From Candidatus Zixiibacteriota bacterium (GTDB lineage: Bacteria > Zixibacteria > MSB-5A5 > GN15 > FEB-12), in assembly GCA_019038695.1 (NCBI GenBank), contig JAHOYZ010000027.1, positions 1 to 41,114 of the forward strand: DNA of 41,114 bases. The letters run 5' to 3'. The notes beneath the pieces are model-generated. The model ran no database searches. It saw only the letters and a list, made by a program, of their open reading frames with translations, and was not told where the DNA came from. The position numbers and the translations under genes were made by a program. Every line of letters begins with the position of its first letter. Positions within the stretch are counted from its first letter, which is position 1. Of this stretch, positions 1,232 to 8,728 are shown piece after piece.

Positions 1232-1274
1232 GGGTGGGATGATTGTCGAAACTGAAGACAGTGTCGACCTACAA

Positions 1275-1340
1275 GACTGGATGCCGGATCAAGTCCGGCA
1301 TGACAAGTCCTTCGGGGGGATCAAGTCCGGCATGACAAGT
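1275..1340. repeat. Palindromic GCCGGA-TCAAG-TCCGGC element with a partial tandem copy
   Basis: ATGCCGGA (1281-1288) and TCCGGCAT (1294-1301) form a perfect 8-bp stem around TCAAG. The right part, GATCAAGTCCGGCATGACAAGT (22 bases split as 1287-1298 and 1299-1308), is repeated directly at 1319-1340. Elements of this look are common intergenic repeats in many bacteria. It lies in the 330-base gap between the surface protein and the S41 protease, which holds no gene I can support. Confidence 0.65.
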
Positions 1341-1370
1341 AGTTCGGCCGGGTCTTACACATTACAGAAT

Positions 1371-1415
1371 GGGGCAGACGACAGGTATCACCTGTTTAGG
1401 GCGTCTGCCGCCCAC
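1371..1415 (-). repeat. REP-like palindrome, copy A (with internal insertion)
   Basis: GGGGCAGACG (1371-1380) and GCGTCTGCCGCCCAC (1401-1415) are the two arms of the REP-like element described at 7151 and 7741. They are separated here by about 20 bases that contain a small hairpin of their own (CAGGT-ATC-ACCTG). A further half copy (GTTTGCCGCCCACGG) lies at 1441-1455. The orientation matches the copy at 7741. Confidence 0.65.
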
Positions 1416-1501
1416 TTATGTAGTACCAAATTCCATGGGTGTTTGCCGCCCACGGAATCTGTCAGGGAATGGTTCCACCACGCATGTTTTAGTGTATCTA
1501 C

Positions 1502-1536
1502 AAAGAAAAACGCGGCAGACAATCATGTCTACCGCG
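1502..1536 (-). terminator. Rho-independent terminator of the S41 protease gene
   Basis: Read on the minus strand, CGCGGTAGACA-TGAT-TGTCTGCCGCG forms an 11-bp stem with one mismatch and is followed directly by TTTTTC. It lies 26 bases beyond the stop codon of the minus-strand protease gene. Its stem shares the GTCTGCCGC core of the nearby REP-like elements, which may be chance or may show that a repeat was recruited as a terminator. Confidence 0.8.
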
Positions 1537-1561
1537 TGATGCTCAAACAGAGCTTAGTAAT

Positions 1562-6367: not shown

Positions 6368-6371
6368 TGTT

Positions 6372-6394
6372 GTGGGCGGCAGACGCCCGCGCAG
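6372..6394 (+). repeat. REP-like palindrome, copy B (degenerate right arm)
   Basis: GTGGGCGGCAGACGCCCGCG begins five bases after the aminopeptidase stop. The left arm (GTGGGCGGCAGACG) is identical to the copy at 7151, but the right arm has decayed. It has the same orientation as the copy at 7151. Confidence 0.65.
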
Positions 6395-6470
6395 TACAAG
6401 TACATCATGGTGCTGAAGATGTTCCTTTGGTCGTGGATGTTGAGGAATTGTATGCATCGATCCTATCGAA

Positions 6471-6496
6471 CTAGACCCACAGCAAGCTGTGGCTAG
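6471..6496. repeat. Perfect hairpin CCACAGC-AA-GCTGTGG between CTAG ends
   Basis: A 7-bp perfect stem (6477-6483 with 6486-6492) is framed by CTAG on both sides, 24 bases before a lipoprotein start. No T-run follows. It resembles the hairpins at 8549-8568 and 8625-8644 in design and may belong to a second small palindrome family. Confidence 0.55.
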
Positions 6497-6519
6497 AATT
6501 TAATGATGGGATATTTACT

Positions 6520-7119
6520 ATGTTGAAGCTCTGTTCCCTGGCCGCTGTGTGTGTCTGCGGTGTTAGCATCCTCTTTGCAGGTGGCTGCACGGTGCTCAAG
6601 TACTATGACATTGCCCCATTGACCAATCAGCAGCTGATTCAGGGATCACTCAGTTTCAAGATGTACTCAATGGACTGGGATCTACAGCGCTGCAATGACT
6701 CGACAATCTATTCAGATTCTAGGTACACACCAGAGATGCTCGACTTCTACTCCCAGTATCGCGACTTTCAGGTAGATACATTGAAAACATACTGGTCAAT
6801 TCTCATTTGTCACGACATCAAGTGGGTCCAGAACACACACACCAGACTGCGGGTGGATTCAATCGCAATACTGTTGCAGAAGAACGGATCCAAGATTCCG
6901 TATGAGGGGCTTGTTCATGAGACAATTACTCACGATCGTTGCCCTTATGCAGCGTCCATATTCATCGGTCCGATCGGCATTCCTAAGGGCTACAAAGACA
7001 CATGGTCAATTAGCTTTGTTCTGTCAATCTTTGATGCTGAGAGTGACGATCTGCAGGAGCGCATACCAGTCGAGTTGGAGTCCCATTGGAGGAAGAAGCT
7101 ATATCCGATACATCCGTGA
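6520..7119 (+). CDS. Hypothetical lipoprotein
   Basis: The product has 199 residues. It has a type II signal peptide with lipobox FAGGC (Cys23), so it is predicted to be lipid-anchored in the envelope. The mature part is mixed alpha/beta, without repeats or motifs I recognise. A GATGGG stretch about 12 bases upstream is a weak ribosome-binding site. It sits between two REP-like elements and resembles the other small lipoprotein at 7966 only in size and lipobox. A hairpin (TTCTACG-AGATC-CGTAGAA, 7121-7139) follows its stop. The function is unknown. Confidence 0.75.
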   Translation: MLKLCSLAAVCVCGVSILFAGGCTVLKYYDIAPLTNQQLIQGSLSFKMYSMDWDLQRCNDSTIYSDSRYTPEMLDFYSQYRDFQVDTLKTYWSILICHDIKWVQNTHTRLRVDSIAILLQKNGSKIPYEGLVHETITHDRCPYAASIFIGPIGIPKGYKDTWSISFVLSIFDAESDDLQERIPVELESHWRKKLYPIHP

Positions 7120-7120
7120 G

Positions 7121-7139
7121 TTCTACGAGATCCGTAGAA
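7121..7139. other. Hairpin directly after the lipoprotein stop codon
   Basis: TTCTACG and CGTAGAA form a perfect 7-bp stem around AGATC, one base after TGA. Without a T-run it is a poor intrinsic terminator; it could protect the mRNA 3' end. Confidence 0.4.
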
Positions 7140-7150
7140 AGAGCGATTAT

Positions 7151-7184
7151 CGTGGGCGGCAGACGCCCCCGTCTGCCCCATTCC
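7151..7184 (+). repeat. REP-like palindrome, copy C (5' flank of the RAYT gene)
   Basis: CGTGGGCGGCAGACG (7151-7165), CCC, then CGTCTGCCCCATTCC (roughly 7170-7184). The arms pair as TGGG(CG)GCAGACG with CGTCTGCCCCA, a stem with a 2-base bulge, and the GTGG foot lies outside. That is the layout of known REP sequences. It lies 44-50 bases upstream of the transposase start and is the reverse complement of the copy at 7741. Confidence 0.8.
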
Positions 7185-7221
7185 AAAAACTTGTTGAGTT
7201 ATCGACACTAGGAATAGACCA

Positions 7222-7227
7222 TATAAT
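7222..7227 (+). promoter_or_regulatory. Consensus -10 box abutting the RAYT start
   Basis: A perfect TATAAT ends one base before the ATG at 7228. A start site about seven bases later would fall on the in-frame GTG at 7234, giving a leaderless message. The -35 region is weak (TTATCG at 7199). Confidence 0.45.
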
Positions 7228-7740
7228 ATGGTAGTGAGGAAGAGACTAAACATAGCTGGACCTGCAATTGCTTTTATCACCACCACTGTGTTTGAATGGA
7301 AACCGATCCTAACTCAGATGAACGTTGCTGATACTATCATTGAAGAGATCCAAAAGACTCAATCACTATTTCAATGTTCGATGATAAGCTATGTGATTAT
7401 GCCGAGTCATATTCATCTGCTCATGGGTTTTGCGAATATCGATGATCTATCGAAATATATGCAGAGTTTCAAAAGTATTACTTCCCGAAGAATCAAACGA
7501 TTCACCCTTCAAGAATTGGCGGAGAATGACTTTAAATTATGGAAGCCACGTTTTGATGATTTGATTATTCAATCAGAAAGGCAATTGAGAATCAAAATGG
7601 AGTACATCCACAACAACCCCGTTAAAGCAGGACTGGTAGAAAATGCTGAGGACTGGCCGTATTCAAGTGCTGTTGATTGGCTGACATCAAACGGAAATGT
7701 AATTAAGATCGATAAGGCGTTTCATTGGTTAACGAAATGA
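7228..7740 (+). CDS. REP-associated tyrosine transposase (RAYT, Y1/IS200-like)
   Basis: A 170-residue single-strand DNA nuclease of the HUH/Y1 superfamily. Family members bind and cut REP hairpins and are thought to spread them. The HUH motif is MPSHIHLL (His61, His63) and the catalytic Tyr126 lies in MEYIHNNPVKAGLV; this block plus DWPYSS is the hallmark of RAYTs. Length is near the family norm. The gene is bracketed by inverted REP-like elements (7151-7184 and 7741-7773), the classical REP-RAYT-REP arrangement. GTG at 7234 is an alternative start. No IS200/IS605-type ends or tnpB are present. The reading frame is intact, so it could still be active. Confidence 0.9.
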   Translation: MVVRKRLNIAGPAIAFITTTVFEWKPILTQMNVADTIIEEIQKTQSLFQCSMISYVIMPSHIHLLMGFANIDDLSKYMQSFKSITSRRIKRFTLQELAENDFKLWKPRFDDLIIQSERQLRIKMEYIHNNPVKAGLVENAEDWPYSSAVDWLTSNGNVIKIDKAFHWLTK

Positions 7741-7773
7741 TGAAGGGGCAGACGAGGGCGTCTGCCGCCCACG
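7741..7773 (-). repeat. REP-like palindrome, copy D (3' flank of the RAYT gene)
   Basis: TGAAGGGGCAGACG, AGGG, CGTCTGCCGCCCACG: the near-exact reverse complement of copy C. It begins right after the transposase stop codon. The conserved GTGGGCGGCAGACG arm is on the minus strand, so the two copies point in opposite directions around the gene. Confidence 0.8.
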
Positions 7774-7965
7774 CAAAATTCAAGGCCGCTGAAGTTCATT
7801 TCAACCGGGTCCCATCTCAAGGACTCGGTCCGCTCTGGACGCCTACCGGATTGTTGAGCGCAGGACTGCACATGCTGGTGGATGGCGCAGACCAATCTCG
7901 CTGGATGATACCGCGTAATTGGCTTGTGAATACATACGAGGCCGCATATGGCTATAGGACATCCT

Positions 7966-8514
7966 ATGTGTACTAAGGGCATCAAGTGGTTGGTCCTGGG
8001 ATTTGGGCTGATCCTTGTCGGAGGGTGTGGGATTATCTGGGATACGGAGTACGCAAAGGAGTACATAATCCGTGGCGATCCGTTTGAGACAGATAATACG
8101 ATTGCATGTCGCGATCGGAATGTCAGGTTAACGGTTGCGGCTCGCCGCGCGCGACACCCTGTCGTTGACAGTTTTTACAATATCAGCATGGGAGTATCCC
8201 CTGCTGATGTCAAACGCCGGGGTGACACGTGCTTCATCAACCGCCTTACGATAGACCGTCTGTCAATAGAGTTCGTGGGGGATGATAACGGCCTACGGGA
8301 TCTCCGGCCTGTTAAGGCCCGGTACTTTCCCAGCAGATCTTCGCCCAGGGGCCGATACCTTGAGTTTGGGCGGCATATGATCCCGAACAGTGTTGATACA
8401 ATCAGGATTCACCTTTTCTACCGATATGAAGATAGCACCGGCGTAATGGCGGCCGACACGGTAGTAGATATGTGGAAAGTGGAGGACCATTTCACAGGAG
8501 CGATAATATGGTAA
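7966..8514 (+). CDS. Hypothetical lipoprotein
   Basis: The product has 182 residues from the ATG at 7966, which has AGGA six bases upstream; an in-frame ATG at 7948 adds six residues and lacks a site. The signal peptide ends in lipobox LVGGC. The mature part (for example RDRNVRLTVAARRARH and FYRYEDSTG) shows beta-strand-like alternation and no known motif. It lies in the REP/RAYT island, with a REP-like element on each side. The 225-base gap before it holds copy D and nothing else I can support. The function is unknown. Confidence 0.7.
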   Translation: MCTKGIKWLVLGFGLILVGGCGIIWDTEYAKEYIIRGDPFETDNTIACRDRNVRLTVAARRARHPVVDSFYNISMGVSPADVKRRGDTCFINRLTIDRLSIEFVGDDNGLRDLRPVKARYFPSRSSPRGRYLEFGRHMIPNSVDTIRIHLFYRYEDSTGVMAADTVVDMWKVEDHFTGAIIW

Positions 8515-8548
8515 TCCGTTGGATACTGGTGGTCTTCCGCGCGGGTGC

Positions 8549-8568
8549 CATGCTCAAACTTGGGCATG
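8549..8568. repeat. Hairpin CATGCTCAA-AC-TTGGGCATG
   Basis: A 9-bp stem with one G-T pair and a two-base loop lies 35 bases after the lipoprotein stop codon. Its AA/AC-centred layout resembles the hairpins at 6471 and 8625. Confidence 0.5.
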
Positions 8569-8590
8569 AATTAGATCAGAGGAATATTCA

Positions 8591-8622
8591 TGAAGGGCAG
8601 ACGAGGGTGCCTACCGCCCACG
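8591..8622 (-). repeat. REP-like palindrome, copy E
   Basis: TGAAGGGCAGACG, AGGG, TGCCTACCGCCCACG: the same element and orientation as copy D, with several substitutions in the right arm. It shows that the family extends beyond the pair flanking the transposase. Confidence 0.7.
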
Positions 8623-8624
8623 AA

Positions 8625-8644
8625 CCCATAGCACAAGCTATGGG
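8625..8644. repeat. Perfect hairpin CCCATAGC-ACAA-GCTATGGG
   Basis: An 8-bp perfect stem begins three bases after REP copy E. It has the same design as the hairpin at 6471-6496. Confidence 0.55.
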
Positions 8645-8672
8645 GCGCCGAACACGTAGACTACTCAGATAG

Positions 8673-8705
8673 AAAAGGCCGACGCTGTACAACGTCGGCC
8701 TTTTT
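8673..8705. terminator. Bidirectional rho-independent terminator
   Basis: AAAAGGCCGACG (8673-8684) and CGTCGGCCTTTTT (8693-8705) form a long stem with A and T tails on either side. It serves the minus-strand subtilase gene and would also stop plus-strand transcription from the lipoprotein side. Confidence 0.88.
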
Positions 8706-8728
8706 GAATTCTATTGATCGAGATTGTC

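Follow-up and report, generated by a model that had tools for sequence, protein, structure and literature searches.

A REP hairpin family and its matched RAYT transposase in Zixibacteria

We describe a RAYT gene that lies between two inverted REP hairpins in a Zixibacteria genome and that, together with them, forms a REP-RAYT unit. The window, that is, the whole 41,114-nucleotide stretch analyzed here, is contig C27 of this 58-contig, 3.28 Mb genome. We read the locus, with a probability of roughly 0.88, as a REPtron: a single-copy RAYT, its two inverted flanking REPs, and ~50 dispersed non-autonomous copies that the enzyme makes or once made. The unit is strongly supported by the protein domain, catalytic residues and fold, by the inverted flanks, by the intergenic location of the copies, by covariation within the hairpin and by a copy number linked to the gene. 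Enzyme and hairpin clearly coevolve, and by analogy with E. coli TnpAREP, the RAYT probably spreads the hairpin repeat.

A RAYT gene between two inverted hairpins

The window contains the following features, with covariance model scores in bits for four of the REP copies:

1244-1272, minus strand: copy of a second REP family, GTAGGTCGAMACTGTCTTCAGTTTCGACA, of the C15 type (see below), with foot GTAG
1367-1419, minus strand: type-B REP copy with an inner hairpin, ACAGGTGATACCTGT, within its loop (41.7 bits)
1440-1453, minus strand: half copy consisting of the left arm, with two mismatches (core-pattern match)
6372-6394, plus strand: half copy with left arm and loop, without the right arm, joined to the remnant of another RAYT type
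6400-6474, plus strand: RAYT C-terminal remnant, VHHGAEDVPLVVDVEELYASILSN up to a stop codon, of a type intact on contigs C2 and C40 (translation compared with the C40 protein)
about 6475-6497, plus strand: the remnant's own palindrome, CCCACAGCAAGCTGTGG, which follows it
7148-7183, plus strand: upstream flanking REP, with GTG foot, 2 bp, 1-nt bulge, 8-bp stem and loop CCCC (55.1 bits)
7228-7740, plus strand: RAYT gene, 170 aa, with HUH motif H61-x-H63 and catalytic Y126 in YIHNNP (Pfam Y1_Tnp, NCBIfam NF047646, AlphaFold2 fold, residue conservation)
7741-7776, minus strand: downstream flanking REP, inverted, starting directly after the stop codon, with loop CCCT (54.3 bits)
8590-8625, minus strand: decayed REP copy whose fold is lost (40.5 bits; fold z -0.32)

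A preliminary description of this DNA had proposed an intact RAYT gene at 7228-7740, and the domain, the HUH and tyrosine residues and the predicted fold all bear this out. The protein carries a Y1 HUH domain (Pfam Y1_Tnp, 45 bits) with the HUH pair and a single catalytic tyrosine, and H61, H63 and Y126 are invariant among 16 homologues. By profile and structure, it is nearer to RAYTs than to IS200/IS605 transposases: the NCBIfam REP_Tyr_transpos model NF047646 scores 120.5 bits against a cut-off of 80, whereas the IS200 model NF033573 scores 30.8 bits, under its cut-off of 55. The top PDB match to the AlphaFold2 model (mean pLDDT 91) is 4ER8, E. coli TnpAREP bound to REP (Z 17.6, 144 residues, rmsd 2.8), which leads by a margin of Z 4, with the IS608 and ISDra2 transposases at Z 13 and below. 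In a tree of 75 proteins, the REP-flanked genes occupy one side of a single branch (support 90/92, 92% of bootstrap trees), and the window RAYT groups with Bacteroidota and Ignavibacteriota RAYTs, apart from E. coli rayT. Its clade, clade 1, is marked by the motifs [ST]H[IL]H, W[KM]PRF and YIHNNP. A sister clade of Zixibacterial RAYTs, with W[MN]PRY, was seen at L072, L074, L076, L078-L082, L175, L177 and L182; several of its members are flanked by a different palindrome, GTTCCGTCAGGTCCT...AGACCTGACG.

Apart from one loop base and the tails, the two hairpins bracketing the gene are identical in sequence, which agrees with the near-identical palindromes in opposite orientation noted in the preliminary description (7151-7184, plus; 7741-7773, minus). 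Both fold better than shuffled sequence (z -3.7 and -2.7), as does the copy at 1371-1415 (z -5.0), and the window holds 12 core matches at ≤3 mismatches where shuffles give 3.6 ± 1.6. The further copies of that description are all present, with a change of status for two of them: 1371-1415 is a full copy, while 6372-6394 is a half copy and 8591-8622 is decayed. Its half copy at 1441-1455 was recovered with two mismatches, and the covariance model likewise has no matches in the 12-41 kb part, where none had been seen by eye.

Because the half copy at 6372 is joined to the remnant of a third RAYT type, the island is a small graveyard of two REP systems; a same-genus genome contains a 69-base DNA stretch that matches the remnant itself (6400-6474) at 88%. 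In G001, the sole same-genus genome, at about 70-76% DNA identity, both genes flanking the island were found, on different contigs, and neither the 271 bp beside the peptidase gene nor the ~1.4 kb beside the subtilase gene matched the island (6370-8728). The island is thus likely absent from G001, read across a contig break, and the divergence of this genome leaves no insertion polymorphism to be read. An intact gene and near-identical copies are compatible with current activity of the RAYT, as judged from sequence.

Dispersed copies and their link to the gene

A covariance model built on 33 copies detected 52 genomic copies (E < 0.01), and the core pattern at ≤2 mismatches gave 66 matches genome-wide (26 exact) against 15 for a reversed control. 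Of 48 copies examined, 43 are intergenic, in sequence with a coding fraction of 0.79 (binomial P about 4e-24; gene calls by simple ORF scoring, which misses the AT-rich RAYT itself). The whole-genome profile search with a test of intergenic enrichment, suggested in the preliminary description as a check, recovers what is expected of a REP: a short palindrome in many dispersed, mostly intergenic copies. Copy neighborhoods, studied in 40 stretches of genome, include several REPs in direct tandem, some of them without the gene. No inverted pairs closer than 500 bp, the arrangement of a REPIN, occur among the 52 copies, and no avoidance of divergent gene gaps was seen (4 of 40 copies, against 10% of intergenic bases). 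Explanations of the element as a terminator or an Rfam family were not supported: no Rfam family matches it, a terminator search did not call it, and no T run follows it.

Two variants of the element were noted. Type-B copies with the inner hairpin ACAGGTGATACCTGT were found in the window (1282-1415, minus strand) and at L009, L016, L018, L020, L022 and L045, mostly followed by TGTCATGCCGGACTTGATCCGGCAT palindromes in a mosaic, BIME-like repeat. Separately, a terminator-like stem of the S41 peptidase gene (1510-1537, minus strand) includes the REP stem GCGGCAGACA/TGTCTACCGC with a T run behind it, and L040 has a similar stem, GCGCGGCAAACG...TTTTTTT; such REP stems may have been co-opted to terminate transcription.

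We then compared 61 related genomes from several families of the order, whose loci carry the names Zixibacteria or Zixiibacteriota. The element occurs in 50 of them, across several families, at 0 to 111 copies each, so the earlier view of it as lineage-specific is not supported. A full-length clade-1 gene is present in at least 18 of the 61. We read 30 full-length clade-1 loci from this phylum, 40-74% identical to the window RAYT and including one (L088) taken from a species-genome collection. By covariance model, 25 of the 30 genes have an inverted hairpin pair on both sides; four (L068, L166, L173, L174) have the hairpin on one side only, and the palindromes flanking L061 have diverged. We also read 87 loci whose RAYTs belong to other clades: 73 were drawn from many phyla, 10 came from relatives and 4 from the same genome. 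None of these has a model match of ≥20 bits within 150 bp, and they bear palindromes of different sequence. An exception is a further locus, L178, a RAYT outside the clade with one REP copy ~70 bp away.

Copy number follows the gene. Median copy number is 36.5 in the 18 genomes that carry a full gene, none of which falls below 11, against 10.5 in the 40 genomes without it, 13 of which have at most one copy (Mann-Whitney P 2.7e-5, for related genomes and uncorrected for kinship; three genomes with partial or ambiguous genes were excluded). The count of other RAYTs correlates with copy number much less (rho 0.27 versus 0.48). Of five same-genus pairs differing in the gene, four differ in the expected direction (53/6, 111/75, 59/23 and 36/5 copies) and one does not (104/108). 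Clade-1 genes are also absent from G009 (108 copies, 100% complete) and G020 (75 copies), which implies that copies persist or spread without the gene; this pattern fits gene loss, as described for RAYTs in E. coli (PMC6006769), yet weakens the link between gene and copies.

From the stem tip beside a gene, the tip type of the remaining copies in the same genome can also be predicted (mean share 0.63 versus 0.34 when shuffled, P 1e-4). The clearest case is G033, which has two clade genes with flanking tips ACG and ATG, alongside 40 ACG and 50 ATG copies. In G046, G023, G012 and G021, most copies lack the tip of the gene's flanks. Several clade RAYT paralogues occur together within G039 (L063, L167-L170) and within G033 (L055, L164), and each is bracketed on its two sides by a REP variant of its own. 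Related clade units are repeated three times in G055 (L058, L165, L166) and twice in G043 (L068, L172), which suggests that the REP-RAYT-REP unit sometimes duplicates whole. In G017, a REP copy (L174, 856-891, plus strand) lies in frame within a clade RAYT gene, between its HUH and tyrosine motifs; to our knowledge, REP insertions inside RAYT genes are described for subclass 2.4 only.

Hairpin structure, foot and matched variants

Over 32 flanking copies, the structure comprises a GTG foot, a stem of two and then eight base pairs separated by a single bulged base, and a four-base loop, with 97.5% of cells paired. The preliminary description had drawn a 2-base bulge; on the homologous flanks, we rejected this register, which pairs 88.8% of cells against 97.5% when bases 4 and 5 pair with the two bases after the stem. 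Two-sided changes fall in 5 of the 10 stem pairs (32 cells versus 7.9 in shuffles), and the covariation score was reached by none of 500 shuffles: compensatory change conserves the hairpin, as in a REP. The stem tip takes the forms ACG/CGT, ATG/CAT, ACC/GGT and GTG/CAC.

The foot is GTGG in most copies of this genome, as the preliminary description had it, and most copies here fit the usual REP pattern of a 5′ GTAG or GTGG 0-2 nt from the stem. Clade-wide, by contrast, the invariant part is limited to GTG: the fourth position can be any of G, C, A and T and is paired with the second base beyond the stem, so the foot is better given as GTG plus a paired fourth base.

The genome has four further RAYTs, on contigs C2, C40, C13 and C15. 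On either side of the C15 gene stands an exact copy, in inverted orientation, of GTAGGTCGAAACTGTCTTCAGTTTCGACA, a repeat with foot GTAG and 40 genome copies at ≤3 mismatches; counting the window pair, the genome thus has at least two RAYT-REP families, which differ in their feet. The C2 gene has a different palindrome, with GTGG. A copy of the window's REP occurs 494 bp away from the C13 gene, and one occurs some 700 bp away from the C2 gene.

By analogy with E. coli TnpAREP, single-stranded REP DNA would arise in replication, transcription or repair, placing the left-hand GTG foot beside the hairpin. The RAYT would bind the hairpin and read the foot; Y126, with a metal held by the HUH pair, would cut and rejoin the strand, and single-stranded pieces containing the REP would be excised and inserted at new intergenic sites. 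Since the enzyme evolves in step with its hairpin, every RAYT paralogue retains a REP variant of its own. A tentative extension, which we consider possible although somewhat doubtful, is that the clade comprises natural orthogonal enzyme-hairpin pairs, in which each RAYT would read the GTG foot plus its own stem tip, several independent REP populations would coexist in one genome (two in G033, up to five variants in G039), and sequence could reveal the specificity code.

Alternative explanations and known systems

The REPtron reading has to be weighed against three other accounts. Host selection might keep the copies for their structure in RNA or DNA, whether as terminators, mRNA ends or protein-binding sites, with the RAYT incidental or domesticated. 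Their intergenic location, in several cases no more than 20 bp from where a gene ends, the proper terminators with REP-like stems at 1510-1537 and in L040, the copies in genomes without the gene, and the view that RAYTs are kept for an unknown host benefit (PMC6006769) all agree with such selection. However, the lack of a T run, a terminator call or an Rfam family speaks against it, a copy number ranging from 0 to over 100 between relatives does so as well, and the tight pairing of one clade with one hairpin, down to the tip type, would be unexpected; we regard host selection as an unlikely origin of the pattern. Alternatively, the window REP might be made by the C2, C40, C13 or C15 enzyme, with the window RAYT acting on other repeats. 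The presence of four candidates, the copies near the C13 and C2 genes and the many copies in some gene-free relatives would allow this, but the C15 gene has its own exact flank pair of another family (GTAG foot, 40 copies), the C2 gene has another palindrome, and the number of other RAYTs explains copy number poorly; we consider this account very unlikely.

Movement of the whole REP-RAYT-REP unit as an ordinary IS200-like transposon, leaving dispersed REPs as remnants, would account for the closely related units in G055 (three) and G043 (two), where whole-unit duplication happens. In this genome, however, the unit is single, no gene remnants were seen beside typical REP copies in the stretches read, direct tandem copies occur without the gene, and the IS200 model stays below its cut-off (30.8 versus 55); we therefore find this account very unlikely. 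Collectively, a REPtron, in which the RAYT made or makes non-autonomous copies of its flanking hairpin, remains the reading we prefer.

The REP-RAYT system itself is well known (PMC2817692, PMC6006769), and the preliminary description's view that element and enzyme were undescribed holds in part: our literature search, thin on subscription journals, found no paper linking REPs to Zixibacteria. A known system is thus found here in a new phylum, as a new family that shows modest foot variation and unusually clear coevolution of enzyme and hairpin. An uncultured phylum thereby gains a REP family and its matched enzyme, and the clade provides ~30 enzyme-hairpin pairs in which stem changes are cleanly two-sided and the foot varies. 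With several different pairs present in one genome among them, this set makes recognition by a RAYT of its own REP directly testable.

Among described systems, the REPtron of Nunvar et al. 2010 (PMC2817692) shares the Y1 HUH transposase, the inverted REPs on both sides, the genome-wide REPs and the RAYT-REP coevolution; it differs in that here the host is a Zixibacteria genome and REPs are single or in direct tandem, without the short inverted doublets of pseudomonads. E. coli TnpAREP (rayT, 4ER8) has the same fold at 24% identity, with HUH and tyrosine aligned, and a GTAG foot where here we find GTG plus a paired fourth base. Of its GTAG-contact residues W94, Q95, E100, H101 and R104 (PMC6006769), alignment places a conserved W and a D for E in the window protein, with Q95, H101 and R104 not conserved. 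These partly kept contacts would fit a changed foot; they prove nothing about it, because the C2 RAYT keeps the residues yet its palindrome has GTGG. Among TnpAY1 subclasses (PMC6006769), the system resembles 2.2 in its long bulged REPs and SS motif, unlike that subclass's DHLH/WE/YIHYNP, and resembles 2.6 in YIH[QN]NP, the SS motif and similar length, unlike its NH[LIV]H/WQ and atypical palindromes. As in the GTAG-tagged REP superfamily of Di Nocera 2013 (PMC3733652), the element is a 20-40 bp intergenic, RAYT-associated palindrome with an unpaired tag at one end; here, however, the tag is GTG, base 4 is paired and variable, and the phylum lies outside that paper's list.
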